Origin: a virus
DNA: 42,814 nucleotides
IMG/VR virus record: IMGVR_UViG_3300037258_000245
Location: 1-42,814 of that record
Direction: 5' to 3' (one strand)
Within the stretch, counting starts at the first letter, position 1. The number at the start of each line of letters is the position of its first letter. Below the pieces are notes generated by a model. The model did no database searches, was not told the origin of the DNA, and worked only from the letters and a program-made list of their open reading frames with translations. A program made the position numbers and the translations under genes. This document shows, piece after piece, positions 5,768-31,039 of this stretch.

Positions 5768-5896
5768 ATGATCAAGTGCCAGACCTGCGGCGGCAAGGGA
5801 ACGGTCCCCGGCAGCATAGGCCGCCCCGACCTGAATTGCCCCAACTGCAAAGGGAAGGGCGAGCACCCAAAGCCGAAGGGCTGGGTGGGAAAGTGA
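5768..5896 (+). CDS. Two-knuckle DnaJ-type zinc microprotein (copy 1)
   Basis: A 42-residue protein made of two C-x-x-C-x-G-x-G knuckles (C4/C7 and C24/C27) joined by a short linker. These are the repeats that bind zinc in the central domain of DnaJ/Hsp40, where pairs of knuckles fold together; here they stand alone with no J domain. The ATG at 5768 has a GGGGAAGG site. It lies between tRNA-Cys and tRNA-Gly(TCC) and is probably co-transcribed with them. Similar proteins occur at 9709, 14273, 14547, 15171 and 30869. Role unknown; RNA or protein binding is an inference. Confidence 0.8.
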   Translation: MIKCQTCGGKGTVPGSIGRPDLNCPNCKGKGEHPKPKGWVGK

Positions 5897-5900
5897 GCAT

Positions 5901-5972
5901 GCCGCGCTAGCACATCGGCTAGTGCACCTGCCTTCCAAGCAGGCAAGCGGGGTTCGACTCCCCGGCGCGGCT
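5901..5972 (+). tRNA. tRNA-Gly(TCC)
   Basis: Acceptor GCCGCGC/GCGCGGC. The anticodon stem is CCTGC/GCAGG with loop CTTCCAA (anticodon 5934-5936). The discriminator is U, normal for bacterial glycine tRNAs. Confidence 0.93.
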
Positions 5973-5993
5973 CGCAGGAGAGGAGGGAACCAG

Positions 5994-6089
5994 ATGGGAA
6001 AGCACGAGAAGCCGCTCAGCCGTAACACCGGCAAGGGCGGAGCAGGTGGGGCGCACGAGAAGCCCGGCACCGACAAGAAGGACAAGTGA
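5994..6089 (+). CDS. Small Lys/Gly-rich hydrophilic protein, 31 aa
   Basis: A tiny charged protein (MGKHEKP... ending KDK) that starts after an excellent AGGAGGG site with normal spacing. H-E-K-P occurs twice, separated by a glycine-rich stretch. It is probably disordered, and no function can be proposed. It sits between tRNA-Gly(TCC) and tRNA-Lys(CTT). Confidence 0.6.
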   Translation: MGKHEKPLSRNTGKGGAGGAHEKPGTDKKDK

Positions 6090-6113
6090 CCAACCCCGGC
6101 TCCGGCCGGGCTA

Positions 6114-6186
6114 GCGCCGCAAGCTAAACAGGTGAAGCACCCGGCTCTTAACCGGGGGATATAGGGTTCGAGGCCCTGGCGGCGCA
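6114..6186 (+). tRNA. tRNA-Lys(CTT)
   Basis: Acceptor GCGCCGC/GCGGCGC. The anticodon stem is CCCGG/CCGGG with loop CTCTTAA (anticodon 6147-6149). The discriminator is A. Confidence 0.92.
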
Positions 6187-6187
6187 C

Positions 6188-6259
6188 TCCCTGGTGGTGT
6201 AACTGGCAACACGACTGGCCCTGGACCAGTTATTTGAGGTTCGAATCCTTGCCGGGGAG
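6188..6259 (+). tRNA. tRNA-Gln(CTG)
   Basis: Acceptor TCCCTGG/CCGGGGA. The anticodon stem is ACTGG/CCAGT with loop CCCTGGA (anticodon 6221-6223). Position 33 is C rather than the almost universal U. The discriminator is G. One spacer base separates it from tRNA-Lys. Confidence 0.85.
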
Positions 6260-6325
6260 CGGGTGGCAGGGGGGTGCCCTTAGCTGCAAGCCCAGGGCGA
6301 CGCCTCCCCCCTGCCCACCTACAAT

Positions 6326-6400
6326 GCCTGTGTAGCTCACGGAAGGCAGAGCGCCGCTCTCGTACAGCGGAGGCAGGCCGTTCAACCCGGCCCACAGGCT
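6326..6400 (+). tRNA. tRNA-Thr(CGT)
   Basis: Acceptor GCCTGTG/CACAGGC. The anticodon stem is CCGCT/AGCGG with loop CTCGTAC (anticodon 6361-6363). The T-loop is TTCAACC and the discriminator is U. This is the first of three threonine tRNAs. Confidence 0.92.
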
Positions 6401-6420
6401 CGTTAGGGAAGGGAGAAGGA

Positions 6421-6582
6421 ATGATTCAGTTCTTGAAGAAGCTGCTGGGGTGGGCCATCGTTATCTGGCTGCTCATCAAGGCCCCGTCTTTTGTCGCCTG
6501 GGCTTTGCACACCGCCTACGACCTCTTTAACGAGGTCGCCAGCGGCCTGATCTCCATCGCGCACAGTTTCGGCGCAGGCTAG
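6421..6582 (+). CDS. Small single-pass membrane protein
   Basis: 53 residues. A short basic start (K6, K7) is followed by a hydrophobic segment at about 8-30, interrupted by K20, and an amphipathic C-terminal part. The start has a GGGAGAAGGA site. The last base of the stop codon is the first base of tRNA-Thr(TGT), so transcript processing must separate them. Inner-membrane location is inferred; no family was recognised. Confidence 0.7.
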   Translation: MIQFLKKLLGWAIVIWLLIKAPSFVAWALHTAYDLFNEVASGLISIAHSFGAG

Positions 6583-6656
6583 CCTCCCTAGCTCAAGTGG
6601 ACTAGAGCAGTGGCTTTGTAAGCCGAAGGTTGCCGGTTCGAGACCGGCGGGGGGCT
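6582..6656 (+). tRNA. tRNA-Thr(TGT)
   Basis: Acceptor GCCTCCC/GGGGGGC. The anticodon arm is GTGGC/GCCGA (one mismatch at the base of the stem) with loop TTTGTAA (anticodon 6617-6619). The T-arm is GCCGG-TTCGAGA-CCGGC and the discriminator is U. Confidence 0.9.
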
Positions 6657-6673
6657 CGGAAAGGGAGCACACC

Positions 6674-6823
6674 ATGGGAGCCCACAAAGGCAAGCAGTAC
6701 AAGGACAAGCCGTCTAAGCAGCGGTACTGGACACAAAACCACCGTAGGATTAACAAGAAGCGGCGCATTCTGCGCTGCAATGGCCAGGCATTCCTGGACC
6801 GCTGGGTAGCCCGGTACGGATAA
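6674..6823 (+). CDS. Small basic protein, 49 aa
   Basis: A strongly basic protein (MGAHKGKQY..., with K-K-R-R near the middle) carrying aromatic residues and a single Cys. It has an AAGGGAG site before the ATG. The charge suggests nucleic-acid binding, but no motif is recognisable. It lies directly after tRNA-Thr(TGT). Confidence 0.6.
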   Translation: MGAHKGKQYKDKPSKQRYWTQNHRRINKKRRILRCNGQAFLDRWVARYG

Positions 6824-6846
6824 GGAAGGGAAAGCAGGGGAGTGCA

Positions 6847-7095
6847 ATGCAGGAGATGACAGGCCAGAACCTGAAGCTGAAGTACCGGGCACCCAAGCCG
6901 AAGGGCTCCAACCCGGCGAGGGCAGGCGGGAACTCTGGCGCAAGCAGGAGCAAGCCGGTCCGCACCAAGGAACAGGTTGCAGCTGCCCACGAGGCCACCC
7001 GGGTTAACCAGCGGGTGATGGTCCTGGTGGACGGGCGCCACCGTCGGTTCATGACGGTGGCCGAGTGGGAAAGGATGGCGGAAGAGCGCACATGA
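6847..7095 (+). CDS. Basic protein with short folded C-terminus, 82 aa
   Basis: The N-terminal 45 residues are rich in Lys, Gly, Ser and Pro and probably unstructured. The C-terminal part (V-M-V-L-V-D-G-R-H-R-R-F-M-T-V-A-E-W-E-R) looks like a small beta-hairpin plus helix. An AGGGGAG site precedes the start. The stop overlaps the next ATG, indicating coupling with the gene at 7092. Function unknown. Confidence 0.65.
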   Translation: MQEMTGQNLKLKYRAPKPKGSNPARAGGNSGASRSKPVRTKEQVAAAHEATRVNQRVMVLVDGRHRRFMTVAEWERMAEERT

Positions 7096-7421
7096 TGAAG
7101 ACCAGCGAGATGGCAGCCCGGGTGCTGGAGGCTATCCCCAGCCGCCGGTTCTGGGTCAAGAGCACCTACCACGGTGGCCGGGGCATGGAGCGGCACTGCG
7201 TGCTAGGAGCCATGGACGCCGCCGGGATTCCCCAGCGGGACCGGAACCGGTTCGCCAGGGCGTTCCAGCGGGTCGCGAACAGCCAGTGGCCAGAACGCCG
7301 GTGGCGGAAGGACGGCCCCATCACGCCGCTGGGCATTGCGGCCTTCAACGACCACCCCGACACCCGGTACGCCGACGTGCGCATCGTGCTAGAGAAGCTG
7401 CGGGCTGACGAGTCCGCCTGA
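7092..7421 (+). CDS. Small protein of a C-x-x-G-A / F-N-D family (copy 1)
   Basis: 109 residues. Its pattern (H-C-V-L-G-A-M near residue 35, A-F-N-D near 83, then a helix ending E-K-L-R-A-D-E) recurs in the protein at 16507 and recalls small actinobacterial proteins often labelled DUF6197. That label is from memory and unverified. The start overlaps the previous stop (ATGA); an upstream in-frame ATG at 7065 lies inside the previous gene and is less likely. Function unknown. Confidence 0.7.
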   Translation: MMKTSEMAARVLEAIPSRRFWVKSTYHGGRGMERHCVLGAMDAAGIPQRDRNRFARAFQRVANSQWPERRWRKDGPITPLGIAAFNDHPDTRYADVRIVLEKLRADESA

Positions 7422-7446
7422 CCACCGGCCGGGCAACCGGCCGCAC

Positions 7447-7519
7447 GCCCCCTTAGCTCAGCGGCCAGAGTGTCTCCATGGTAAGGAGAAGGTCTACGGT
7501 TCGATTCCGTAAGGGGGCT
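7447..7519 (+). tRNA. tRNA-Thr(GGT)
   Basis: Acceptor GCCCCCT/AGGGGGC. The anticodon stem is TCTCC/GGAGA with loop ATGGTAA (anticodon 7480-7482). The T-arm is TACGG-TTCGATT-CCGTA and the discriminator is U. With CGT and TGT it completes a threonine set. Confidence 0.93.
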
Positions 7520-7593
7520 CGGTGACCTCCAGGTTTTACCCATACGGCCATGGCGCTGCCTGGGGGTCGCCCCGAGGAAGGGAATGATGCGAG

Positions 7594-7938
7594 TTGTTCA
7601 ATCAGGGCGGGCCGGTCACCGAATACAAAAACGATGTTGGCCCTGGATGGCACGGTCTGCTGGACGAGATGCACACAGCACTGTCAGCGATCAACCCGGC
7701 CTACCAGACCGTCCAGGTCAAGGAGAAGTTCGGGTGCTTGCGGGTCTACCTGGAGCACGCCCCAATCGAGATCGCCAGGGTCCTGGGCCGGTTTGAGGCC
7801 AGGTCAGGTGAGACATGCGAGCAATGCGGCAAGCCAGGGGTATGCCAGGCCACCAAGGCACACGGCTGGATCAAGACCCTTTGCCGCTCATGCCGGTATC
7901 CTGAGGCTCATGTAGCCGATGGTGAAACAGCAGGATAG
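7594..7938 (+). CDS. Zinc-ribbon protein starting at TTG, 114 aa
   Basis: The body (W-H-G-L-L-D-E-M-H..., V-K-E-K-F-G-C-L-R-V-Y) is followed by a zinc ribbon: C-E-Q-C-G near residue 74 and C-R-S-C near 97. This K-E-K-F-G plus zinc-ribbon arrangement is familiar from small phage proteins of unknown function. No ATG or GTG is available in frame. TTG at 7594 is the likely start, placed 11 bases after a GAGGAAGGGA site. It lies between tRNA-Thr(GGT) and tRNA-Gly(GCC). Confidence 0.75.
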   Translation: MFNQGGPVTEYKNDVGPGWHGLLDEMHTALSAINPAYQTVQVKEKFGCLRVYLEHAPIEIARVLGRFEARSGETCEQCGKPGVCQATKAHGWIKTLCRSCRYPEAHVADGETAG

Positions 7939-7995
7939 TGGCCACCGCGCTCCTGCTGGACGGCGCACAGCGCGTCGCCAAGAGCGGTGGCACAT

Positions 7996-8068
7996 GCGGA
8001 TGTGGCGCAGTTGGCAGCGCGTCACCTTGCCAAGGTGAAGGTCGCCGGTTCGAACCCGGTCATCCGCT
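7996..8068 (+). tRNA. tRNA-Gly(GCC)
   Basis: Acceptor GCGGATG/CATCCGC. The anticodon stem is TCACC/GGTGA with loop TTGCCAA (anticodon 8029-8031). The discriminator is U. Confidence 0.93.
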
Positions 8069-8151
8069 CGGCTGGGTCACGATGCGAACCAAGGTGCAGC
8101 GGCTAGCCGCCAAGGTACCGGCCGATTCCGGTGATCGTGACCCAACTGCTT

Positions 8152-8236
8152 GCGCTGGTGGCTGGAATTGGCAGACGCGCCTGGCTCAGACCCAGGTGTC
8201 CGAGAGGACGTGGGGGTTCGAGTCCCCCCCGGCGTA
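8152..8236 (+). tRNA. tRNA-Leu(CAG)
   Basis: A class II tRNA with a long variable arm (GTCC/GGAC type). Acceptor GCGCTGG/CCGGCGT. The anticodon stem is CCTGG/CCAGG with loop CTCAGAC (anticodon 8187-8189). The discriminator is A, essential for leucine. It is the only leucine tRNA found. Confidence 0.92.
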
Positions 8237-8240
8237 CAAA

Positions 8241-8316
8241 GGCTGGCAGGTATGGGCGATACGTCCTGTGCAAGGCCGCGTAAGGGGCCACCCCCCGGGG
8301 GGAGCACCTGCCAGCC
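8241..8316 (+). repeat. 11-bp perfect inverted repeat between tRNA genes
   Basis: GGCTGGCAGGT (8241-8251) pairs with ACCTGCCAGCC (8306-8316), enclosing about 54 bases that contain a further C-run/G-run hairpin. It begins five bases after tRNA-Leu. It may direct RNA processing or end transcription. The rest of the gap, to 8427, shows no gene. Confidence 0.5.
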
Positions 8317-8427
8317 CCCGGTGAGGTACCGAGCCCTGGGCAATGGGACGATCCCAAAAGCGCGCACCCGGGAGCCTGCGGAGGAGGCGGGCATGTTGAC
8401 CCCTAGCAGACCTCACCTTCAAAATAT

Positions 8428-8516
8428 GGAGCCTTCGCCTAGTCCGGTTTATGGCGCCGCCCTGCTAAGGCGGTTCAGGGGCAACCCTGTCGAGCGTTCG
8501 AATCGCTCAGGCTCCG
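8428..8516 (+). tRNA. tRNA-Ser(GCT)
   Basis: A class II tRNA. Acceptor GGAGCCT/AGGCTCC. The anticodon stem is CCGCC/GGCGG with loop CTGCTAA (anticodon 8464-8466). It has a long variable arm, T-arm GAGCG-TTCGAAT-CGCTC and discriminator G, as in serine tRNAs. Confidence 0.93.
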
Positions 8517-8538
8517 CGTTAACGAAAGGAGAGAGAGG

Positions 8539-9018
8539 ATGAAGCTGGCGACAGCGCTCAGCGAGTTTTCCGACATGAAGAAGGAGGTAGCCCAGCTGCG
8601 GGCCAGGGCTAAGGCCAACGCCATCCACCAGGAAGGCGAACAGCCGGTTGAGGACCCGAACGAGCTGGCTACCCAGGTCCGGGCATTGATGGTCAGGCTG
8701 AGTGCCCGTGCCGCCGAGATCAACATGACCAACGCGGCCACCACGGTCAGTGATGGCCGCACCATCACCCAGCTGCTAGCCAAGAGGGACCAGCTGAACG
8801 CCGAACGCGGGTTCATCAGTGACCTGGCCGACTGCGCCACCCCCAGCCAGCGCAGCCTGTACGGGCGCCGGGCTCGATCCGAGCTGAAGGACGAGACCCT
8901 GCTGGACGTGCCGGTCCTGCGAGCCGAAGCTGACCGGCTGGCCCGGGAGTACCGGCAGCTGGACGACACCATCCAGGCCGCCAACTGGGCCACCGAGATG
9001 GGCGAACTGAAGCCGTAG
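8539..9018 (+). CDS. DIP1984-like helical protein
   Basis: A 159-residue all-helical protein. The pattern M-K-L-A-x-A-L, R-A-R-A-K-A-N-A near residue 25, the V-E-D-P-N-E-L loop, N-M-T-N-A-A-T-T-V-S-D-G-R-T-I-T-Q-L-L-A-K-R-D, R-S-E-L-K-D near 115, and the terminal D-D-T-I-Q-A-A-N-W-A-T-E matches the DIP1984 (septicolysin-like) family as I recall it. Members are full-length at about 150-160 residues and widespread in bacteria, without a firmly known function. An AAAGGAGAGAG site precedes the ATG. Its position between serine tRNAs is unexpected for a host-like gene. Confidence 0.8.
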   Translation: MKLATALSEFSDMKKEVAQLRARAKANAIHQEGEQPVEDPNELATQVRALMVRLSARAAEINMTNAATTVSDGRTITQLLAKRDQLNAERGFISDLADCATPSQRSLYGRRARSELKDETLLDVPVLRAEADRLAREYRQLDDTIQAANWATEMGELKP

Positions 9019-9254
9019 GGGGAAGTCGGTAACCGTGGTACACGGTTCTGAGGCGAGCGTGAGATTCTACCCTTCAGGGTTTGCACCCCTGCCACTTGGA
9101 GATGCGCCGGGCCGCATCAGCAGTTAACAAGGCAGCCCAGCACGATGCACTCATGGAACAGGGCAGCATTACCGCGCACTACCATCACGCTGATCAGGTA
9201 TCGTGGAACGGTGAGGGCGGGTACGGGGATTTTCCCCCCACACAACAGGTTCAA
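9019..9254 (+). other. Gap with hairpin and T-arm-like segment
   Basis: No protein gene is supported here. A 7-bp hairpin AACCGTG/CACGGTT lies near 9031-9047. A T-arm-like CAGGG-TTTGCAC-CCCTG follows about 40 bases later, but no matching acceptor or anticodon arm could be built. This may be a decayed tRNA. Confidence 0.3.
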
Positions 9255-9341
9255 GGCACCGTGGCCGAGTGGCCTAAGGCAATCGTCTCGAAAACGATAG
9301 GGCGTGAAAGCGTCCCGTGCGTTCAAATCGTACCGGTGCCG
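9255..9341 (+). tRNA. tRNA-Ser(CGA)
   Basis: A class II tRNA. Acceptor GGCACCG/CGGTGCC. The anticodon stem is ATCGT/ACGAT with loop CTCGAAA (anticodon 9289-9291). It has a long variable arm, T-arm GTGCG-TTCAAAT-CGTAC and discriminator G. Confidence 0.92.
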
Positions 9342-9400
9342 CACGGGTGCGAGCTGAGGCTTGTATTGCACTCCCTTGCCCAGCTCGCGCCCATCCACAG

Positions 9401-9475
9401 GGGCATGCAGCTCAGTCCGGTTCGAGCAGCTTCCTGATACGGAGAAGGTCGGAGGTTCAATTCCTCCCATGCCCA
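9401..9475 (+). tRNA. tRNA-Ile(GAT)
   Basis: Acceptor GGGCATG/CATGCCC. The anticodon arm is GCTTC/GGAGA (basal mismatch) with loop CTGATAC (anticodon 9436-9438). The discriminator is A, and this gene is followed directly by CCA, unlike most tRNAs in the array. Confidence 0.88.
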
Positions 9476-9479
9476 CCAC

Positions 9480-9551
9480 GCCGAGGTAGCTCAGTGGCAG
9501 AGCGCTGCGCCCATAACGCAGAGGTCATGGGGTCGTTCCCCGTTCTCGGTA
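9480..9551 (+). tRNA. tRNA-Met or tRNA-Ile2 (CAT), first copy
   Basis: Acceptor GCCGAGG/TCTCGGT. The anticodon stem is CTGCG/CGCAG with loop CCCATAA (anticodon 9512-9514). Position 33 is C and the T-loop starts with G, both unusual. It lacks the initiator G-C triplet and first-pair mismatch, so it is elongator Met or Ile(k2C). The discriminator is A. Confidence 0.8.
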
Positions 9552-9557
9552 CGACGC

Positions 9558-9631
9558 GGGGCGGTAGCTCAGCTGGTCAGAGCAGCGGACTCATAATCCG
9601 CCGGTCCTGCGTTCAAGTCGCAGTCGCCCTA
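9558..9631 (+). tRNA. tRNA-Met or tRNA-Ile2 (CAT), second copy
   Basis: Acceptor GGGGCGG/TCGCCCT. The anticodon stem is GCGGA/TCCGC with loop CTCATAA (anticodon 9592-9594). The T-arm is CTGCG-TTCAAGT-CGCAG and the discriminator is A. It is an elongator type; together with the copy at 9480, one may read methionine and the other AUA. Confidence 0.88.
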
Positions 9632-9708
9632 CGAGCCCCGCAAGCATTAAGGTGATGCAGTCGGCCTTTACCCGATGGAACAGGGGTCAGTACCTTGGCG
9701 GGGCACGC

Positions 9709-9858
9709 ATGAAGATAAAGGTGAAGGTGCAGCGGAAGACCAAATGCCCGAACTGCGGTGGCCGGGGCAAGATCCAGGTCCGGGTACCAGCGGGCCGTGG
9801 CTGGAAGGACGCCGGGCAGTGCCCACGATGCAAGGGCACCGGCAAGATCTACGAATAG
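9709..9858 (+). CDS. Two-knuckle DnaJ-type zinc microprotein (copy 2)
   Basis: 49 residues: a basic Lys/Val-rich start, then C13-P-N-C16-G-G-R-G and C38-P-R-C41-K-G-T-G knuckles. The linker between them (I-Q-V-R-V-P-A-G...) matches the DnaJ zinc domain, where the equivalent strand reads V-x-V-x-I-P-x-G. The ATG at 9709 is preferred because it gives a compact domain; an in-frame start at 9652 beside an AAGG would add 19 residues. It follows the two CAT tRNAs. Confidence 0.8.
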   Translation: MKIKVKVQRKTKCPNCGGRGKIQVRVPAGRGWKDAGQCPRCKGTGKIYE

Positions 9859-9868
9859 GAAAAAGGAA

Positions 9869-10006
9869 ATGGCCGAATGGGGAACCTGCTGGAAATGCCG
9901 TAAGAACTCCGCAATAGCGGGTAGCCTATGTGCTAGCTGTACTCGCGCTGAGCGGGAACAGCGCAAGGCCGAGAAGGAAGCGCGTAAGAAGCGCAAGAAG
10001 AAGTGA
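9869..10006 (+). CDS. Zinc-ribbon microprotein with Lys/Arg tail
   Basis: 45 residues. C7-x-x-C10 and C21-x-x-C24 form a likely zinc ribbon (T-C-W-K-C-R-K, S-L-C-A-S-C-T-R), followed by a helix that ends in ten mostly basic residues. An AGGAAAAAGGAA site precedes the start, ten bases after the previous stop. The basic tail suggests RNA or DNA binding. Directly downstream is tRNA-Glu(CTC). Confidence 0.75.
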   Translation: MAEWGTCWKCRKNSAIAGSLCASCTRAEREQRKAEKEARKKRKKK

Positions 10007-10010
10007 GCAT

Positions 10011-10085
10011 GCCGGGTTCGTCCAGCCAGGCCCAGGACGCCAGCCTCTCAAGTTGGTAACGCCGGTTCGAATCCGGTACCCGGTA
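10011..10085 (+). tRNA. tRNA-Glu(CTC)
   Basis: Acceptor GCCGGGT/ACCCGGT. The anticodon stem is CCAGC/GTTGG with loop CTCTCAA (anticodon 10047-10049). The T-arm is GCCGG-TTCGAAT-CCGGT and the discriminator is A. Confidence 0.91.
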
Positions 10086-10086
10086 C

Positions 10087-10129
10087 GGGTGGTGGGGTGT
10101 GTTTTTGTTCGTCTCCTGCTCCACCACCC
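10087..10129 (+). terminator. Hairpin between the two glutamate tRNAs
   Basis: GGGTGGTGG (10087-10095) pairs perfectly with CCACCACCC (10121-10129). The loop holds a run of five T. It may slow transcription or guide processing. Confidence 0.4.
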
Positions 10130-10135
10130 CCCCCA

Positions 10136-10208
10136 GGCCCCATCGTCTAGCGGTCCAGGACGCCGCCCTTTCAAGGCAGTAGCACGGGTTCAAATCCCGT
10201 TGGGGCTA
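10136..10208 (+). tRNA. tRNA-Glu(TTC)
   Basis: Acceptor GGCCCCA/TGGGGCT. The anticodon arm is CCGCC/GGCAG (one C-A mismatch) with loop CTTTCAA (anticodon 10170-10172). The T-arm is ACGGG-TTCAAAT-CCCGT and the discriminator is A. Confidence 0.9.
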
Positions 10209-10257
10209 CGCGGTACCAGCAGGTAAGGTTAGGAACTCAGGAAGGGAAAGCCGCCCC

Positions 10258-11865
10258 ATGAGTGGCGCACAGAAAACCGAGCTACGCGCGGCTCTAGACA
10301 GCCTTATGCGCCAGCTCATCGACGACCGCAAGGAACAGGAAGGTGAACAGGAAGTGACAACCGCAACCGCCAAGACCGGCCGGGTCATGACCCAGGCCGA
10401 CAAGGACACCGCACGGCTGCTGGAGGTACTCAGCGAGCTGGGCGGGGCAGCGGTAGGGGATGACTCCATCGAGTTCGCAGGCGACAAGATCCGTCTCCCC
10501 GCGCACCTGGCGGGACCCGGTGGCATCGAGCGAGCCTGCAAGACGCTGCGGCAGTACGAGGAGCAGCAGGAGAAGAAGATCGACTTCTCCCGCACGTTCC
10601 CCTACCGCCCCTTCGACGGGGCAGCGGCCTTTAACCGGGCCATGATGCGGGTGTTCGGCACCGCAGGCATCGGCAAGAGCTGGTTCGACTTCTTCGGCCA
10701 GGAGCACCGGCCGCAGCTGATCTCCATCCCCGTGGGCGTGAACGAGTCCATGCAGGTGCCCTGGGACGAGATCCACTTTGAGATGCTGGATGCGGACTTC
10801 GAGATCGGGATGGCGAAGGACCCGAACAAGGGCTTCCTGTCGCACATCACCGTGACCGCCCCCCGCAAGCACCAGGCCCGCATCGAGGGGTTCTTCCGGG
10901 CAATGGAGGAGGAGCTGAAGGAGCGCTCCATCTACCGGGGCCGGGCCATCGACGGGAGCGACAACCCCGGGTTCTGGGACGAGCAGTCGGTCGACCCGAC
11001 CCGGTGCGTCTACAACGACGACACCCTGGTCGACCTGCACGCCAACATCTGGTCGGTGATTGACCACTCCGACCAGATGCGGATGAACCACCTGCCACTC
11101 AAGCGGGCTTTCCTGCTGGAGGGTCCGTACGGCACGGGCAAGACCCAGGCCGGTGCACTGACCGCTCAGCACGCCGTAGCCGCCGGGTGGACCTTCATCC
11201 TGGTGCGGCCGGAAGACAGCCCCCTGGAGGCACTGAGGACCGCCCAGCTGTACTCCCCGGCGGTCGTGTGGATCGAGGATGCTGACAACCTGGCCAACGC
11301 CCAGCACTCCCGGGCTCGTATCTCCACCGTGCTGGACGCGATGGACAACGCAGCCGTCAAGAACACCGAGGTGATGGTGGGCTTCACCACCAACTTCCCC
11401 GACGTGATCGACAAGGGCATGCTGCGGCCAGGCCGGATCGACGCCGTCATCCACCTGGGTGCGGTGGCCCCGTCCAAGCTGAAGGACCTGGTGGAGTCGC
11501 ACATTGCGGCAGCGCTGCGGCCGGACATCGAGTACACCGACGAGCTGGTTGAGGCGTTCGATGGCTACGTGCCAGCGTTCGCCGTGGAGGCCATCCGCCG
11601 GGCAGTGCGCTACTCCATCGCCAAGAACCAGGGCCGCCCCTCCAAGGTCACCACCGCTGACCTGGTGGAGGCAGCCCGGGGTCTGCGCCGTCAGAAGGAG
11701 ATGATGGAAGCTGCCGCCGAAGGCAGCGACGACGCCACCATCGACGCCCTGCTGCGGCGCCAGGTGCGGGCCGAGATGGAGCAGGTCAACCAGCGCACCG
11801 TGCTGGAGGGCGTCGGCACCCCGTTCAAGGTCGTGGACGAGAACGGCCTCGCCCGGCGTCGCTAA
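10258..11865 (+). CDS. AAA+ family ATPase
   Basis: 535 residues. The first 280 residues have no recognised fold. An AAA+ module follows: Walker A G-P-Y-G-T-G-K-T (289-296), Walker B V-V-W-I-E-D-A-D (336-343), sensor 1 F-T-T-N (376-379) and an R-P-G-R finger (390-393), then a helical lid. This resembles FtsH/CDC48-type AAA proteins that remodel protein complexes using ATP; no protease or helicase domain is attached, and Walker B reads E-D. The C-terminal 60 residues are helical. The ATG follows a GGAAGGGAAAG site. A strong hairpin follows the stop. The substrate is unknown. Confidence 0.92.
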   Translation: MSGAQKTELRAALDSLMRQLIDDRKEQEGEQEVTTATAKTGRVMTQADKDTARLLEVLSELGGAAVGDDSIEFAGDKIRLPAHLAGPGGIERACKTLRQYEEQQEKKIDFSRTFPYRPFDGAAAFNRAMMRVFGTAGIGKSWFDFFGQEHRPQLISIPVGVNESMQVPWDEIHFEMLDADFEIGMAKDPNKGFLSHITVTAPRKHQARIEGFFRAMEEELKERSIYRGRAIDGSDNPGFWDEQSVDPTRCVYNDDTLVDLHANIWSVIDHSDQMRMNHLPLKRAFLLEGPYGTGKTQAGALTAQHAVAAGWTFILVRPEDSPLEALRTAQLYSPAVVWIEDADNLANAQHSRARISTVLDAMDNAAVKNTEVMVGFTTNFPDVIDKGMLRPGRIDAVIHLGAVAPSKLKDLVESHIAAALRPDIEYTDELVEAFDGYVPAFAVEAIRRAVRYSIAKNQGRPSKVTTADLVEAARGLRRQKEMMEAAAEGSDDATIDALLRRQVRAEMEQVNQRTVLEGVGTPFKVVDENGLARRR

Positions 11866-11871
11866 AGGGAC

Positions 11872-11916
11872 CCGCCAGCCTGTCCCCGTGAGGTGGTCAC
11901 GGGGACAGGCTGGTGG
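11872..11916 (+). terminator. 20-bp stem-loop terminator after the ATPase gene
   Basis: A 20-base arm ending in CCCCGTGA pairs with TCACGGGG and its continuation around a five-base GGTGG loop, with a single G-T pair. No T-tract follows, which is usual in GC-rich actinobacterial phages. Confidence 0.75.
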
Positions 11917-11938
11917 CTCAGCAGGGAAAGGAACAGGA

Positions 11939-12511
11939 ATGAACGACGAAGCGATCGGGGCGCTGCTGACCGCAACGCTGACCGCCCGCACCGAATGGGA
12001 CGAGCACCCCGAGCTGTACTTTCTGACCGAGAGTGACGACAGTGCAGCCCTGGTGACCGTGGGCTTGTCAAGCATGTGGTGGGATCTGGCCCCGCCACCG
12101 CAGCTGCTGATGCGGCTGGGGGAGGGGCTGATGCACTACCACAGCCTGCCCGACTCGATCCTGGAGATGCCGAAGCCCCCCGTGCCCGAGCTGCCACCCG
12201 GCTGGATCGGGATGGCTTTCCGGTTTGAGGGCTGGGGCGTGAACATCACCGCAGCTGAGCAAAACGACGACCCAGCGGTGGCTGAGCGGCTGAAGCGAGC
12301 CGTAGCCGAGCATGACCTCTACCTGCAGCCGGAGCGCATCGAGGCCCGCCACATCATGGCCTTCACTACCGCTGACCGGTTCTACCACGTGGAGCAGGAG
12401 CGGGACTGCGAGGTCGTCATGATGCCCAGCGGCGACCCGGGGGGCACTATTGCCGAGGCTCTGATGCTGATGACGTTTGGTTTCAAAGCCGCTACCGCTG
12501 AGAGGCAGTAA
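11939..12511 (+). CDS. Hypothetical acidic protein, 190 aa
   Basis: A well-behaved acidic globular protein (M-N-D-E-A-I-G-A-L-L...), with an internal W-W-D-L, an aromatic M-A-F-R-F-E-G-W-G-V strand and a C-terminal E-A-L-M-L-M-T-F-G-F helix. It has no signal peptide or zinc motif. The start at 11939 follows AAAGGAACAGGA and lies just after the preceding hairpin. No family was recognised. Confidence 0.82.
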   Translation: MNDEAIGALLTATLTARTEWDEHPELYFLTESDDSAALVTVGLSSMWWDLAPPPQLLMRLGEGLMHYHSLPDSILEMPKPPVPELPPGWIGMAFRFEGWGVNITAAEQNDDPAVAERLKRAVAEHDLYLQPERIEARHIMAFTTADRFYHVEQERDCEVVMMPSGDPGGTIAEALMLMTFGFKAATAERQ

Positions 12512-12521
12512 ACGGTATACT
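12507..12521 (+). promoter_or_regulatory. Possible promoter -10 with adjacent CCGTTTAC motif
   Basis: TATACT (12516-12521) lies seven bases before the initiator tRNA. The reverse complement of CCGTTTAC directly precedes it. No good -35 box is visible, so the promoter call is weak. Confidence 0.35.
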
Positions 12522-12527
12522 TGGTTA

Positions 12528-12602
12528 CGCGAGGTGGAGCAGTTCGGTAGCTCGCCGGGCTCATAACCCGGAGGTCGCGTGGTTCAAATCCCGCCCTCGC
12601 TA
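12528..12602 (+). tRNA. Initiator tRNA-fMet(CAT)
   Basis: All bacterial initiator hallmarks are present: a mismatched first pair (C1-U72), an A11-U24 pair in the D-stem, and three G-C pairs in the anticodon stem CCGGG/CCCGG with loop CTCATAA (anticodon 12562-12564). The T-stem GCG-T-GG/CCCGC needs one bulged T. The discriminator is A. A TATACT box with a reverse CCGTTTAC motif lies just upstream (12507-12521). Confidence 0.9.
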
Positions 12603-12606
12603 CGGA

Positions 12607-12646: not shown

Positions 12647-12654
12647 GTCACCAT

Positions 12655-14108: not shown

Positions 14109-14246
14109 ATGGCGTTCGATGTGCGGCTGCACTGTAAGGACGGCTGCAGCCGGACCAAGCTGGTCAAGTGCAACACCCTGCGGGATCGCGCTAGGGCGAT
14201 GACGCGGGGCTGGGCATGTGGCCGGTGCAAGAGGAAGGGCAAGTAG
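14109..14246 (+). CDS. Zinc-binding microprotein, 45 aa
   Basis: Cys residues at 9, 13, 21, 37 and 40 (H-C-K-D-G-C, K-C-N, A-C-G-R-C-K) allow one zinc site, closed by the terminal C-G-R-C-K-R-K-G-K. The rest is basic. It has a GAAAGGGG site before the ATG. It is the first of five small genes packed between tRNA-Arg(ACG) and tRNA-Val(CAC). Function unknown. Confidence 0.72.
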   Translation: MAFDVRLHCKDGCSRTKLVKCNTLRDRARAMTRGWACGRCKRKGK

Positions 14247-14272: not shown

Positions 14273-14455
14273 TTGAGCAAGCGAGTCGGGGGCGGTGGCA
14301 AAGCCCCCAAGCCATGTCCGCAGTGCACGGGCAACGGAGCCCCGAAGGGGAAGATCCCCGCAGGGACCAAGCCAGGCATTGGCGGCACCAAGAAGCCGGT
14401 CTACAAGACCTGCCCCACCTGCCACGGTAACGGCACCGTATCGAGCCGAACCTAG
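14273..14455 (+). CDS. Two-knuckle DnaJ-type zinc microprotein (copy 3, TTG start)
   Basis: 60 residues with C15-P-Q-C18-T-G-N-G and C47-P-T-C50-H-G-N-G knuckles and a flexible Gly/Lys/Pro linker. TTG at 14273 is chosen as the start because a long GGAAGGGAAAGGAAG site lies just before it and no better codon exists; an ATG upstream would overlap the previous gene. The second knuckle's C-H-G-N-G-T matches DnaJ closely. Confidence 0.75.
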   Translation: MSKRVGGGGKAPKPCPQCTGNGAPKGKIPAGTKPGIGGTKKPVYKTCPTCHGNGTVSSRT

Positions 14456-14471: not shown

Positions 14472-14546
14472 ATGCCAGACCCGATTCTGATCCCAACCAC
14501 AGCCAGGCCCAAGCCGAAGCCCAAGCCCAAGCCGAAGCCGAAGTAG
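14472..14546 (+). CDS. Pro-Lys repeat micropeptide, 24 aa
   Basis: A 24-residue peptide whose second half is an alternating P-K repeat, encoded by a tandem CCGAAG/CCCAAG array. GGGAGGA sits at good distance before the ATG. The stop is immediately followed by the next ATG (TAGATG). The repeat would form an extended, very basic tail, and binding to RNA, DNA or membranes is possible. Confidence 0.6.
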   Translation: MPDPILIPTTARPKPKPKPKPKPK

Positions 14547-14729
14547 ATGGCAAAGAAGCCGAAGAAGCTAGGGCGGCAAGGTAAAGTGCGCTGCCGTCAC
14601 TGCAGCGGAACCGGCAAGGTGGAGAAGCGGATAGCTGACCGCCGCACTGGTAATGCTGACATCCGGCTAGTTCCCTGCCCAAAGTGCAAGGGCAGTGGAT
14701 ACTGGAAGGGTGACCGGGGCTCCTTGTGA
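14547..14729 (+). CDS. Two-knuckle DnaJ-type zinc microprotein (copy 4)
   Basis: 60 residues: a basic N-terminus (K-K-P-K-K-L), then C16-R-H-C19-S-G-T-G, a linker rich in Arg and Asp, and C44-P-K-C47-K-G-S-G. It begins directly at the stop of the P-K micropeptide and is probably translated by re-initiation. The S-G-T-G and K-G-S-G pairs are classic Hsp40 knuckles. Confidence 0.8.
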   Translation: MAKKPKKLGRQGKVRCRHCSGTGKVEKRIADRRTGNADIRLVPCPKCKGSGYWKGDRGSL

Positions 14730-15055: not shown

Positions 15056-15232
15056 ATGAGCAAGTCCCACAAAGATCAGCGCAAGCACCGTCGCAAAGTG
15101 GCTGGAACGATTAAGGGACTAGCCGAGCACCGCAAGCGAGGTAAGCGCCGTGACGGAGGGAAGGGAAAGGATGCCGTTCGGAAAGAAGAAGCCAGGCAAG
15201 CACCGCTCACCGGTACCGCTGGTGAAGTGTAA
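15056..15232 (+). CDS. Basic small protein, 58 aa
   Basis: The sequence begins S-K-S-H-K-D-Q-R-K-H-R-R-K-V-A-G-T-I-K-G-L and stays Lys/Arg-rich throughout. An ideal AAAGGAGAAGC site precedes the ATG. The last 62 bases overlap the next gene in another frame, so its last 20 residues are less certain. The charge suggests RNA binding. It follows tRNA-Tyr directly. Confidence 0.6.
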   Translation: MSKSHKDQRKHRRKVAGTIKGLAEHRKRGKRRDGGKGKDAVRKEEARQAPLTGTAGEV

Positions 15233-15347
15233 GCCGTGCAATGGCTCCGGCTGGATCGTGAAGGTTATCAAGGGTGCCACGTACGACCAGCGCTGCCCGG
15301 CCTGCAAAGGCAAAGGAAAGGTACCTAAGGACGCGCCCGGGGCGTAG
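15171..15347 (+). CDS. Two-knuckle DnaJ-type zinc microprotein (copy 5)
   Basis: 58 residues: a basic lead (K-K-K-P-G-K-H-R), then C20-K-P-C23-N-G-S-G, an aromatic/valine linker, and C42-P-A-C45-K-G-K-G. A GGAAGGGAAAGG site lies right before the ATG at 15171. The gene overlaps the upstream basic-protein gene by 62 bases, an unusually long overlap for this region. Confidence 0.8.
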   Translation: MPFGKKKPGKHRSPVPLVKCKPCNGSGWIVKVIKGATYDQRCPACKGKGKVPKDAPGA

Positions 15348-16881: not shown

Positions 16882-17014
16882 GCAGGTGTGGAAGGAACGC
16901 GCCCAGAAGGAGCGCGCTGCCCAGGTCGCCCTGAGCCGTAAGCAGGCCGCAGAGGCCCGTAAGGCCGCAAAGGCCCGGCTGGAGGCGAGGAAGAAGGCGA
17001 AGAGTGGCCGCTAA
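16868..17014 (+). CDS. Basic helical microprotein, 48 aa
   Basis: One continuous Ala/Arg/Lys/Glu helix (V-W-K-E-R-A-Q-K-E-R-A-A-Q-V...) ending K-A-K-S-G-R. It starts inside the previous gene (14-base overlap) and overlaps the next by 11 bases, indicating coupled translation. It resembles the proteins at 12935 and 13283. Confidence 0.6.
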   Translation: MATREQVWKERAQKERAAQVALSRKQAAEARKAAKARLEARKKAKSGR

Positions 17015-17171
17015 CTGCGCCAAGGCAGGAACCTGCGAGTGCGATTGCCACATGTGCCAATACGGCTCGCATGACCAGTGCCAGCGCTACGGCCATAACG
17101 ACGGGGGCTGCCACATGAAGTGCAGCCCCCCGAAGGGGAACGGGAACGGAAAGGAGGCAGCCCGTGCTTAA
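17004..17171 (+). CDS. Cysteine-rich metal-binding microprotein, 55 aa
   Basis: Nine Cys and four His occur in 55 residues: C-x(5)-C-E-C-D-C-H-M-C near the start, D-Q-C-Q near residue 26 and G-C-H-M-K-C near 37. This dense C-x-C / C-H-x-C pattern resembles metallothionein-like or multi-zinc proteins and differs from the knuckle family. GTG at 17004 follows a GAGGAAGAAGG region and overlaps the upstream stop; the 3' end overlaps the next start by eight bases. Confidence 0.65.
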   Translation: MAANCAKAGTCECDCHMCQYGSHDQCQRYGHNDGGCHMKCSPPKGNGNGKEAARA

Positions 17172-18755: not shown

Positions 18756-19039
18756 GAGAAGGGCTGGCAGCCCAGGTCGGGCGCCAGGCCATCGAGCGTG
18801 GCATGCAGCTTCTGCTCGTAGGCTCGTGACGGGTTCGACTTCGCATCCCCGACCGGTGGCTTGAGCGCAGCCAGCTCACCTAGCGTGGTGCAGATCCGCT
18901 GGACCGCTATCTCGCCCTGGCGCTGCTGTTCGCTCTTGAACTGCTGCACGTAGATGTAGGTGGAAGCCAGGTTGGCGATGCCCATGACGAGCACCGCCAC
19001 GATCACCACCCACCAGATGCGAGCCTGCACATTCAGCAC
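18737..19039 (-). CDS. Membrane-anchored protein with periplasmic helix, about 100 aa
   Basis: The start region (V-L-N-V-Q-A-R-I-W-W) runs directly into a transmembrane helix (about 8-28), then Q-F-K-S-E-Q-Q-R-Q-G-E-I and I-C-T-T-L-G-E-L, and ends in a Gly/Ser/His tail. A GTG at 19039 overlaps the upstream stop; a GTG at 19030 would give 97 residues. The layout mirrors the upstream protein at 19033, including Y-E-Q-K-L-H-A-T-L versus Y-D-Q-Q-V-H-A-A-L, so the two are paralogues. They may be lysis accessory (spanin- or holin-like) proteins. Confidence 0.72.
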   Translation of the reverse strand: MLNVQARIWWVVIVAVLVMGIANLASTYIYVQQFKSEQQRQGEIAVQRICTTLGELAALKPPVGDAKSNPSRAYEQKLHATLDGLAPDLGCQPFSHHSGS

Positions 19040-27581: not shown

Positions 27582-29761
27582 GAGCGCCTCCCGTACGCAA
27601 AAAGGCCGTTACCTTGGTTGAGCTGAACGTAACGAAGAATAGCCTCCTGGACGACCGGCTGAATCCCCTGCAGGAACTGGGGGCTGGTCAGCGAGCCCAT
27701 GCCCGGAGCCATCGCAATGGGCACCTGAACGTGCAGCTGCGGTGCGATCTGGGTCGTGGCGAGCGCCAGCGTGCTGGTGCGGCCACCCATCACCCCAGCC
27801 AGGGAGTTGACCGCCGCGTGCACCTGCGGAGCACCCTGCAAGATGCCCCGGGCCATGTCCTGCGCAAAGTGGCGCCCCCGGACCTCTGGTGCCCCCGAGC
27901 CCGACAGCTCGCCCCACTTAGCAGGCGACAGGCCAAAGAACCCGGCAATCTTTGACGCGATGCCCGAGGCAGCAGAGATCACCGAGCCAATAGCCGACAG
28001 CATGCCCCGGGCCAGGGACTCGATGGCCCGTGCCCCAGCGCCAAACAGCATCCCCGGCAAAGCAGCAAGCGCAGCAACAATCCGGCCCGGGACCGACCGG
28101 GCAACCCGGACCACGGCGTTCCAGGCGGCGTCCCAGATGGCCTCGACCCGGTGCCCAAAGCTGATCATGATCGCACCGACGTGGTTCATGCCTGCGTTGG
28201 CCACGGTCGAGATGAACCGCCACGCAGCCTCGATAGCCTCACCGATCAGCCGCCATTCCTTCACGGTGAACGACCACAGGTTGTCCCACTGGTGCTCGAT
28301 GCTGTGCGCCGCCTGCTCGATCTGCTGCTTGGATTCAGAGCCCAGCTTCTTAATCCAGGCGAGGGCGTCGCTGATCCACTGCTTAGTGTTCTTAAAGGCC
28401 GCACTCAGGTCGTCCCACATGTTCATCACGTTGCGGATGGCGTACGCGGTGCGGTTGATGACGCCAGCCAAGATGTCGAACAGGATATTGATGGCGTGGA
28501 TGACGTCCTTTTTGGAGAAGGACTCCATCAGCTGGGCCACTGCTCCGGCTACCCGGCCGATGCCCCTGGCTATCGCCTGGATCGACGGCCCCTCCAGCGT
28601 GTGCAGGAACTTAGCGAACTCCTGCCAGCCGGTCAGCGGCGGGGCTTCGATCTTGTTGCCCTTCAGGATGCCCTGGGGCAGGTCGGGAGCCTTCGGCCGT
28701 GGGGCAAAGAACTTGTCCAGCTGCTTGAGGACCTTGTCCAGGGCGGTGGCAGCGGTATCGGCAAACGGCTTGATCTGCGGCAGCAGCTCGTTGGCGATCT
28801 TGAGGCCGTCATTGAGGACCTTGAAGGCGTCCGGCTCAAACGCCTTGGACATGGCCTCATAGGCATCCTTGAGATGGCGGATGCCTAGCACCGCACCGCG
28901 CTCTGCCGGGTCCAGCTTGGCCAGCTCTTTGCGGTTGTCACCTAGGGCCTTGGTGACTTTCTCAAAGGCTGGCTTAGCCAGCAGCGCAAAGGCACCGATG
29001 CCTGCCCCCGCCGCCAGGAACCCAGTAGCGAGCGCACCAACCCAGGTGACCAGTCCGATGATGGCCGGAGCTATCACCAGAGCCCCAGCGCCAAACGCAC
29101 CCAGCGACCCCGTCAAGGCCGACAGTGAGGCTTCGCCCTCTTCGGACTCCCCGACGAACCCCACAATGGACTGCCAGAACTTACCGCCACGGCCAAAGTT
29201 GGAGAAGAACCCGCCCACTCCGCTGGAGCCTTCGGCCTTCTGAGCCTCCTCGTCTGTGTGGGTAAAGAAGCCAACAATGGCGGTGTGCATCGTGCCGATG
29301 CGCTCCACCACCGAGCCCACCATCTCCCGGAAGTGGCTGAACCGCTCGGTGGCGCGGTCGGTGGCTTCGGAAGTGTGGCGCATGTCCTCTGTGGCGGTCT
29401 TCAGCTTCTCGTGCAGCTTGCTGGCTTGGTCCCCGGCCGCCTTGATGTCCTCGGTGACGCGGGTGGTAGAACCGTGCACCTGGTCCCCGGCACCCTTAAC
29501 CTCATCCAGCCGGGTGCGGACCTGGGCCAGTTCATCGGCGGTCTTAGCGTCGGTCAGGTTGGCGTCGTTCATCTTGCCGCGCAGCTTGTCGATCTCCTTA
29601 GCGGCAACATCAGCTGCGGCGGCCATAGCCAGCAGGTCGCGGGTGGCCTCCTGGACCTGCTCGGCAAAGTGACGAGTCTCGTCGGTGGCCTCCTGGAGGT
29701 GACGGATGTAGTCAGAGACGTCAGCGATGAACTTCTGGGTCACCGGATCGAGATCAGCCAT
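27578..29761 (-). CDS. Tape measure protein
   Basis: 727 residues. The first 190 residues are a long heptad-rich coiled coil (D-Y-I-R-H-L-Q-E-A-T-D-E-T and A-S-K-L-H-E-K-L-K). Gly/Ala-rich hydrophobic segments follow at about 225-270, then helical repeats with Trp, and a second G/A-rich stretch near 555-620. This is the usual architecture of siphovirus tape measure proteins, which set tail length and later reach the host membrane. The length is moderate, predicting a fairly short tail. It follows the chaperone genes after a plus-strand island. Confidence 0.9.
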   Translation of the reverse strand: MADLDPVTQKFIADVSDYIRHLQEATDETRHFAEQVQEATRDLLAMAAAADVAAKEIDKLRGKMNDANLTDAKTADELAQVRTRLDEVKGAGDQVHGSTTRVTEDIKAAGDQASKLHEKLKTATEDMRHTSEATDRATERFSHFREMVGSVVERIGTMHTAIVGFFTHTDEEAQKAEGSSGVGGFFSNFGRGGKFWQSIVGFVGESEEGEASLSALTGSLGAFGAGALVIAPAIIGLVTWVGALATGFLAAGAGIGAFALLAKPAFEKVTKALGDNRKELAKLDPAERGAVLGIRHLKDAYEAMSKAFEPDAFKVLNDGLKIANELLPQIKPFADTAATALDKVLKQLDKFFAPRPKAPDLPQGILKGNKIEAPPLTGWQEFAKFLHTLEGPSIQAIARGIGRVAGAVAQLMESFSKKDVIHAINILFDILAGVINRTAYAIRNVMNMWDDLSAAFKNTKQWISDALAWIKKLGSESKQQIEQAAHSIEHQWDNLWSFTVKEWRLIGEAIEAAWRFISTVANAGMNHVGAIMISFGHRVEAIWDAAWNAVVRVARSVPGRIVAALAALPGMLFGAGARAIESLARGMLSAIGSVISAASGIASKIAGFFGLSPAKWGELSGSGAPEVRGRHFAQDMARGILQGAPQVHAAVNSLAGVMGGRTSTLALATTQIAPQLHVQVPIAMAPGMGSLTSPQFLQGIQPVVQEAILRYVQLNQGNGLFAYGRRS

Positions 29762-29800
29762 GTCCGCCTCCTCTCAAGGGAAATAAAAGGTGCCCTTAAC

Positions 29801-29827
29801 CCGTTTACATATGTGTAGGGGTAAGAT
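29801..29827 (+). promoter_or_regulatory. CCGTTTACAT motif and possible promoter of a plus-strand island
   Basis: CCGTTTACAT (29801-29810) repeats the block seen at 3594 and 13674. A TAAGAT (29822-29827) follows at a spacing too short for a standard -35/-10 pair, so the element may be an operator and the promoter is uncertain. The island's first gene begins at 29855. Confidence 0.4.
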
Positions 29828-29854
29828 CTACCCCACAAGGAACGGAAAAGGACA

Positions 29855-30094
29855 ATGAGGATTTTCTACTTCGGCCCCTTCGGCCTGGTCTTTGTCGCCA
29901 TCTGGGCGCTCTGGCAGGCCGTCAAGGTCGCCATCATCGTCACGGTCGGGTTTGTGGTCGCGCTGATCGCGCTGGTTGCATTGGTAGCGCGTGGCATCGG
30001 CCGCTTGTTCGGCCACAGTGCCCCCCGGCACAGTCGCACCGCCTTCGGCAAGGGTGGCTGGGCCTGGGAGTCCATCGTCAAGGCTTGGATCTAA
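29855..30094 (+). CDS. Membrane protein with two helices, 79 aa
   Basis: M-R-I-F-Y-F-G-P-F-G-L-V-F-V-A-I-W-A-L-W begins a first membrane helix (about 6-22), followed by a second (about 24-46), then a basic C-terminal region with H-S-A-P-R-H-S-R. An AAGGAACGGAAAAGG site precedes it. It opens a six-gene plus-strand island inserted in the minus-strand tail operon. Function unknown. Confidence 0.75.
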   Translation: MRIFYFGPFGLVFVAIWALWQAVKVAIIVTVGFVVALIALVALVARGIGRLFGHSAPRHSRTAFGKGGWAWESIVKAWI

Positions 30095-30109
30095 CGCAGA
30101 GGAGCACCC

Positions 30110-30328
30110 ATGCAGCCGCTACAGCCGGAGGCATGGGAGCCCCCGGTCCAGCAGGTGTCCTGCGGTAGCCGCAGGGACCTGTTCAAAAAGCAGCGCCGCC
30201 ATGGCCCCTGGCTCGATGCCGGGCTCGACGTCCGGCATGACGAGCAGGGCGGGTTTGTGGCCGCCCACATCACCATCTGTGGCACGTGTGGCCGGGAGCG
30301 CTGGTACAAGCAGCAGGAGGAGCTATGA
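30110..30328 (+). CDS. Small protein with C-x-x-C motif, 72 aa
   Basis: A W/P-rich start, then R-R-D-L-F-K-K-Q-R-R-H-G-P-W-L-D, G-G-F-V-A-A-H-I-T-I-C-G-T-C-G-R-E-R-W-Y. One Cys pair (C57, C60) plus C18 may hold a metal. An AGAGGAG site precedes the ATG; the stop overlaps the next ATG. Function unknown. Confidence 0.72.
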   Translation: MQPLQPEAWEPPVQQVSCGSRRDLFKKQRRHGPWLDAGLDVRHDEQGGFVAAHITICGTCGRERWYKQQEEL

Positions 30329-30447
30329 AGTGCAACTGCGGGGCGGCAGTGTCGCCCCTGCTCAGGGTGTGCTCGCGCTGCTTCCAGGCACTGTGGGCGG
30401 CGTTCTGGGCCACCATGGACGACGCCACCGGGGTGCCGGGCAAATGA
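30325..30447 (+). CDS. Zinc-ribbon microprotein, 40 aa
   Basis: M-K-C-N-C-G-A-A-V-S-P-L-L-R-V-C-S-R-C gives C3/C5 and C16/C19, the short zinc-ribbon pattern of many small phage and ribosome-associated proteins. The rest is a short helix. Both ends overlap neighbours by four bases or fewer (ATGA), so it is translationally coupled to the peptidyl-tRNA hydrolase gene that follows. AGGAGGAG provides the ribosome-binding site. Confidence 0.68.
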   Translation: MKCNCGAAVSPLLRVCSRCFQALWAAFWATMDDATGVPGK

Positions 30448-30866
30448 GCAACACCAAGCAGGTGATCGTGATCCGCAAGGACCTCAAGATGCGGCGCGGC
30501 AAGGAAATCGCCCAGGGCGCCCATGCGTCCATGCGTCCATGCGTCCATGGCCTTATCGGGGCCATGCTCCGCGAGGTTATCGACCCGGAGCATGCCGAGC
30601 CCTGGGAGCACATTCCGCTGCCGCTCACCGCTGTCGAGCGCGCCTGGCTGGCGGGCAGCTTCCGCAAGGTGGTGTGCCAGGTGGACTCAGAAGCCGGGTT
30701 GCTGGAGGTCTACGAGGCCGCTAAGGCAGCCGGGCTGACCGTGCACCTGATCACCGATGCCGGGCTGACCGAGTTCGGTGGCCAGGCCACAGACACAGCA
30801 CTGGCCATCGGCCCCGATTACGACGACCGGATCGACCTGGTAACTAAAGACCTGGAGCTGTACTGA
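30444..30866 (+). CDS. Peptidyl-tRNA hydrolase, PTH2 type
   Basis: 140 residues. The order K-Q-V-I-V-I-R-K-D-L-K-M-R-R-G-K-E-I-A-Q-G-A-H-A-S, then K-V-V-C-Q-V-D-S-E-A-G-L-L-E-V-Y-E-A-A-K-A-A-G-L, T-D-A-G-L-T-E-F, T-A-L-A-I-G-P and a terminal L-V-T-K-D-L-E-L-Y matches the archaeal/eukaryotic-type Pth2 family (usual length about 115-120). This family releases tRNA from stalled peptidyl-tRNA, recycling tRNAs. A 24-base stretch of three ATGCGTCC units just after the A-H-A-S motif adds residues that other members lack. ATG at 30444 overlaps the previous stop. Confidence 0.88.
   Translation: MSNTKQVIVIRKDLKMRRGKEIAQGAHASMRPCVHGLIGAMLREVIDPEHAEPWEHIPLPLTAVERAWLAGSFRKVVCQVDSEAGLLEVYEAAKAAGLTVHLITDAGLTEFGGQATDTALAIGPDYDDRIDLVTKDLELY
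30525..30551 (+). repeat. Three-unit ATGCGTCC tandem repeat inside the hydrolase gene
   Basis: Three consecutive eight-base units preceded by CC and followed by ATGG. Three units (24 bases) keep the frame; gain or loss of one unit would shift it. The repeat lies right after the conserved A-H-A motif. Confidence 0.8.
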
Positions 30867-30868
30867 AA

Positions 30869-31039
30869 ATGCCGAACCCACGTAAGGCCATCCGCCTGCG
30901 CAAGGCCATGCAAAAGGCCGTGCGGACCTGCCCGGTGTGCCGGGGCGAAAAGAAGATCACCGACAAAGACAGCTGGGGCAAGTCGCGCAAGCGGAACTGC
31001 ACCTACTGCCTGGGTACCGGAAAGGTGGTAGGCAGGTGA
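30869..31039 (+). CDS. Two-knuckle DnaJ-type zinc microprotein (copy 6)
   Basis: 56 residues: a basic N-terminal helix (R-K-A-I-R-L-R-K-A-M-Q-K), C21-P-V-C24-R-G-E-K (first knuckle degenerate, Gly replaced by Lys), and C44-T-Y-C47-L-G-T-G. It is the only member outside the tRNA array and sits directly after the peptidyl-tRNA hydrolase gene, keeping the association with tRNA functions. The stop overlaps the next GTG start. Confidence 0.78.
   Translation: MPNPRKAIRLRKAMQKAVRTCPVCRGEKKITDKDSWGKSRKRNCTYCLGTGKVVGR

Follow-up and report, generated by a model that had tools for sequence, protein, structure and literature searches.

DnaJ-type zinc-module microproteins within and beyond a phage tRNA array: probable accessory genes of a variable island

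Introduction

Why does a phage genome carry several microproteins with DnaJ-type zinc motifs, most of them between tRNA genes? The initial annotation of this DNA regarded six such proteins as an expanded family and as a possible new system that binds or matures tRNAs. Here we analyse the whole stretch of 42,814 bases, an IMG/VR virus record referred to as the window, and compare its microproteins and their neighbourhood with those of other phages. Proteins of this kind linked to tRNA genes were not reported in the literature that we searched.

Results

The left part of the window contains a dense tRNA array

The GC content of the record is 63-66% in 4-kb steps. Its left part carries genes for a metallophosphoesterase and an AAA ATPase (10258-11865; identity taken from the names of phage relatives), mixed small genes and tRNA genes on the plus strand. 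The right part lies mostly on the minus strand, with long genes that probably encode tail proteins, further structural proteins and glycosyltransferases; a small plus-strand cluster at 29.8-31.2 kb includes the peptidyl-tRNA hydrolase gene described below. ARAGORN detected 32 tRNA genes on the plus strand between positions 4022 and 15580, interleaved with about 20 protein genes. All 20 amino acids are covered within these 11.6 kb. The Rfam gathering score was reached by 28 of the 32 tRNAs, the others being those for Trp (4022), Ala (4346), Phe (5583) and Ser (8428), and no other tRNA of the array is specific for Trp or Phe. An HNH-type ORF (3638-4072) at the array edge overlaps tRNA-Trp by 51 bases, and a DUF6847 protein (PF20935, 138 bits) is encoded within the array at 8539-9018. 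Several small ORFs contain CxxC pairs or several cysteines without a CxxCxGxG pair (7594-7938, 9869-10006, 14109-14246, 17004-17171, 30110-30328 and 30325-30447). Judged by sequence, the region appears rich in small possible zinc proteins.

Six microprotein ORFs are real phage genes

Six plus-strand ORFs of 42-60 codons were found where the initial annotation had placed them, five of them between genes of the array. The first (5768-5896, 42 aa) starts 20 bases past tRNA-Cys and ends 4 bases ahead of tRNA-Gly(tcc). The second (9709-9858, 49 aa) is located between tRNA-Met and tRNA-Glu. In the interval from tRNA-Arg(acg) to tRNA-Val(cac) lie an ORF with a TTG start (14273-14455, 60 aa) and, directly ahead of tRNA-Val(cac), a further one (14547-14729, 60 aa). 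The fifth (15171-15347, 58 aa) is flanked by tRNA-Tyr and tRNA-Arg(ccg). The sixth (30869-31039, 56 aa) lies, as initially described, next to the gene of an archaeal-type peptidyl-tRNA hydrolase (Pth2; plus strand, 30444-30866; NCBIfam TIGR00283, 89.4 bits, cut-off 82), and it starts 2 bases past the stop of this gene. All were thought to contain two CxxCxGxG knuckles, which was confirmed for the five array ORFs, while 30869 has one complete (CTYCLGTGK) and one decayed knuckle (CPVCRGEKK).

GC content at the third codon position is 0.67-0.84 compared with 0.49-0.66 at positions 1 and 2, as expected for coding sequences. Five frames of the window contain the strict double knuckle, whereas 100 dinucleotide shuffles yielded no such frame. 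Upstream of 5768, 14273 and 15171 there are purine-rich stretches resembling Shine-Dalgarno sites. The start of 14547 abuts the stop of a tiny frame that ends in KP repeats (14474-14546). This arrangement and the 2-base spacing behind Pth2 suggest that 14547 and 30869 may both be translationally coupled to their upstream frames.

The microproteins carry a net charge of +6 to +14. A basic tail, as proposed initially, was not found: basic residues are mostly N-terminal or lie between the knuckles, and many knuckle-free neighbours, such as those at 6674, 13283, 15056, 16340 and 16868, are equally basic.

Sequence supports and predicted fold suggests a stand-alone DnaJ-type zinc module

The best Pfam match of each of the six was the DnaJ cysteine-rich domain (PF00684) or Anti-TRAP (PF15777), always below the cut-off. 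PF00684 scored highest with 9709 (31.3 bits) and 15171 (30.1 bits), and none of the six reached its gathering cut-off of 32.7. The microproteins contain at most two motifs instead of the four CxxCxGxG motifs and J-domain of the full DnaJ architecture. In a profile search of the PDB the DnaJ zinc domain was the best match (1exk, E 1e-7), and UvrA, anti-TRAP and Q-lambda were also found. The Q-like PHROGs 6060 and 127 were among the better sequence matches, PHROG 6060 with E-values down to 3.4e-6. The NCBIfam RtpA model gave at most 22.4 bits compared with a cut-off of 65.

The AlphaFold model of 9709, calculated from a 15-row alignment, consists of four strands (mean pLDDT 83, pTM 0.50). Its top Foldseek matches were anti-TRAP (probability 1.00, E 0.037), DnaJA2, BSD2, a human DnaJ zinc domain and UvrA. 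Probabilities were 0.98-1.00, with E-values of 0.037 or worse that are not significant alone, and the module is small; VIA-align Z-scores of up to 4.5 are modest even at this size. The weaker model of 14547 (pLDDT 73) matched DnaJA2, Q-lambda and UvrA. A C-terminal helix following the zinc motifs is absent from these models, which represent two of the six proteins. Since the alignments used for modelling include sequences selected by the motif, motif and fold are not independent lines of evidence. Sequence supports and the predicted fold suggests a stand-alone DnaJ-type zinc module, which was part of the initial proposal, and each chain would bind one zinc ion.

The six microproteins show no detectable relatedness beyond the knuckles

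To compare the six proteins outside the motif, the knuckles were fixed in place, the remaining residues were shuffled and pairs were scored as z. Pairs among the six gave z-scores of -1.3 to 1.9, so that no similarity outside the knuckles was detected by these anchored shuffles and an origin by recent duplication is not supported. An alignment of all six also showed too little conservation for a pattern scan. The designation as an expanded family is therefore not borne out, and the six are probably separately evolving accessory phage genes.

Outside the window, 14547 weakly resembles a protein of Streptomyces phages of the Loccivirinae, with which it has an N-terminal KKPKxxG in common. Alone among the six it scored with four Loccivirinae members (z 2.6-4.3; tblastn E 0.3). 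A single z near 2-3 means little because many pairs were compared; what stands out is that 14547 is consistent with all four proteins, which are themselves related (z 8.5 to 14.5). The Loccivirinae protein is encoded in 21 Streptomyces phage records, corresponding to 16 distinct phages by name. In all four loci checked (Beuffert, Blueeyedbeauty, Comrade and an environmental relative) it is flanked by tRNA-Gly(gcc) and tRNA-Gly(tcc). In Comrade, Jada, Faust and Blueeyedbeauty one member has its nearest tRNA at a distance of about 250-270 bases, and a second member in Comrade and Jada is 10-11 kb away from any tRNA. Across five members the four cysteines do not vary but the knuckle glycines do, and the second knuckle of the Comrade protein has kept its cysteines without the glycines. 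Conservation of metal binding would produce such a pattern. The gene upstream of the Loccivirinae protein had no match in Pfam.

Double-knuckle microproteins of other phages are mostly located away from tRNAs

A scan of viral contigs with the knuckle pattern returned at least 120 stretches, and a GC-rich version of the pattern matched five contigs. Among the matches listed, 38 distinct double-knuckle microproteins of up to 85 aa were contained in fetched viral loci. Three had a tRNA within 1 kb, against an expectation of 0.75 derived from the proportion of bases close to tRNAs (P about 0.04). The other 35 had no detected tRNA within this distance, a statement on the fetched flanks, because tRNAs past the ends of short loci are invisible. 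Conversely, no double knuckle was found in the whole genomes of NootNoot and Jay2Jay (44 tRNAs each), at 60-120 kb of Erdmann (28 tRNAs) or at 80-140 kb of Myrna (31 tRNAs), and Pfam searches of the whole Erdmann and Myrna records gave no match. A sub-cut-off Pfam stretch of NootNoot, 1.7 kb from a tRNA, was discarded as a CxxC protein lacking the GxG parts. In the window itself, knuckles occur in 5 of 15 small genes inside the array and in 1 of 8 other small plus-strand genes, which is not a significant enrichment (Fisher p = 0.29). These counts derive from a hand-made list instead of a gene finder, with entry 14474 in the wrong phase; dropping a single entry would leave the conclusion unchanged.

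Pth2 is also encoded by Mycobacterium, Sinorhizobium, Xanthomonas and further phages. No double knuckle was present at nine other phage Pth2 loci, and a recurrent pair of the two genes was rejected. A weak likeness to 30869 was noted for gp59 of Curtobacterium phage Commonplace (locus L132, 4031-4159), a 42-aa protein annotated as 'RNA binding protein', in which one knuckle is complete and the other decayed (CPVCLGRKK).

The tRNA-adjacent neighbourhood that the initial annotation suggested looking for in other phages is thus not a general feature and was recovered for the 14547-like protein of the Loccivirinae. Since many phages encode such microproteins at sites remote from tRNAs, a new tRNA-binding or tRNA-maturing system is not supported.

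Comparison with related contigs reveals expanded intervals in the window

A relative of 64 kb and 57% GC (G001) is collinear with most of the window and contains three tRNAs. It has neither a stand-alone double-knuckle ORF nor a tblastn match to Pth2. Intervals of the window are expanded relative to G001: between matched segments, the gap from the phosphoesterase to the 7594 gene measures 36 bases in G001 and 4.1 kb in the window. The islands may have been gained in the line of the window or lost in that of G001. G001 does contain a double knuckle within a long open frame (1,220 residues) at 18877. A second relative (G004, 99 kb) has a single tRNA, directly followed by an HNH-type gene (49941-50309) that matches the window ORF at 3638-4072. 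The only strict double-knuckle ORF of G004 (125 aa) lies 1.1 kb from this tRNA.

Used as a single-protein query, the AAA ATPase found no relative in viral contigs. In viral contigs, an alignment of it with the G001 protein retrieved G001 itself as well as G004 and a third, remote sequence; in genome contigs it retrieved nothing. The tail protein at 32322 matched two viral contigs and, remotely, a phage; it had no match in genome contigs.

Discussion

Our data are best explained by DnaJ-type zinc-module microproteins that are probably accessory genes in a variable island of tRNAs and small ORFs. Their position among tRNA genes would then reflect that such an island gathers both tRNAs and small ORFs, and not an action on tRNA. 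Each ORF would encode one DnaJ-type zinc module, in which two CxxC pairs jointly hold one zinc ion and fix a small platform of beta-hairpin type, flanked by basic residues. Such a module may serve as a small adaptor or competitor that docks on a macromolecule of host or phage transcription or translation, in a mode resembling that of anti-TRAP, the zinc element of Q-lambda and BSD2. We infer this role and the class of target from the anti-TRAP analogy and the fold matches; taken by itself, the adaptor mechanism is possible rather than probable.

The microproteins might instead act on the phage tRNAs by binding or protecting them or by assisting their maturation, and Pth2 would then belong to the same set. 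This would explain why five of the six are found between tRNAs and one behind Pth2, and their positive charge would suit it. The fixed position of the 14547-like protein between tRNA-Gly genes in the Loccivirinae and the lack of stand-alone microproteins in the collinear, tRNA-poor G001 point in the same direction. This Loccivirinae placement, the slight excess of tRNA-near microproteins among the matches listed and the G004 ORF 1.1 kb from the only tRNA of that genome count against the island reading. We nevertheless consider such a function unlikely. Most double-knuckle microproteins among the matches listed lie away from tRNAs, NootNoot, Jay2Jay, the arrays of Erdmann and Myrna and nine other phage Pth2 loci are devoid of the double knuckle, array enrichment is not significant and basicity is common to knuckle-free neighbours. 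Adjacency alone gives no support for a tRNA function. If there is one, the most plausible candidates are 14547 and the related proteins of the Loccivirinae. There is a slim chance that 14547-like zinc microproteins are a genuine partner of tRNA arrays in phage lineages that are not related, with either tRNA or a host factor that depends on tRNA as their target; the conserved tRNA-Gly placement within one subfamily may be plain inheritance.

Two further explanations take the zinc module itself as their starting point. As regulators resembling anti-TRAP or Q, the proteins would either block a transcription regulator or recruit one, for instance to permit read-through of the structured tRNA array or of late genes. 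Anti-TRAP and the Q-like PHROGs are among the better sequence matches, anti-TRAP is the best Foldseek match of 9709, and Q-lambda is among the best of 14547. Moreover, anti-TRAP is a protein of 53 residues with the same two motifs that is made in response to uncharged tRNA-Trp, and its oligomers and function require zinc (PMC2896485). The low RtpA scores, the helix missing from the two models and the much greater length of Q proteins, which have additional domains, make this doubtful. Alternatively, in line with the sequestration of zinc or chaperone surfaces that the initial annotation also considered, the microproteins could be decoys that mimic the zinc region of DnaJ and thereby engage DnaK or DnaJ clients of the host, or they could act as thiol or zinc buffers. 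The DnaJ zinc domain is indeed the best PDB sequence match, and the fold matches include BSD2, a stand-alone DnaJ-type zinc domain bound to the large subunits of Rubisco. With no more than two of four motifs, no J-domain and PF00684 scores below cut-off for all six, this explanation is highly improbable.

The preferred reading, accessory genes of a variable island, places the microproteins among proteins of a known kind: phages commonly encode DnaJ-type zinc modules as separate proteins, hardly any of which has a name. The microproteins have CxxCxGxG in common with DnaJ, and the predicted beta-hairpin zinc fold resembles that of DnaJ; the client-binding domains are missing here. Stand-alone occurrence, small size and two motifs are shared with anti-TRAP, whereas the microproteins are strongly basic. 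Q-like antiterminators are DNA- and RNA-polymerase-binding proteins, and the microproteins correspond to their zinc element alone; likewise, BSD2, Q-lambda and UvrA belong to other contexts and have only the small module in common with them. Among phage proteins with DnaJ-type motifs previously noticed in annotation are a small CxxCxGxG zinc protein of Bacillus phage Riggi (PMC3853051) and Commonplace gp59; the gene of the latter follows a DNA primase operon, and the annotation shows no tRNA in its vicinity. A parallel in placement is the Loccivirinae protein (e.g. Beuffert gp181), which has two CxxC pairs, the KKPKxxG N-terminus and a site between tRNA genes; its identity to 14547 is 25-35% and the phage backbone differs.

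These comparisons suggest that the tRNA adjacency of stand-alone zinc modules is mostly a matter of address. The Loccivirinae protein, present in culturable Streptomyces phages, is the place where a link to tRNA is testable.
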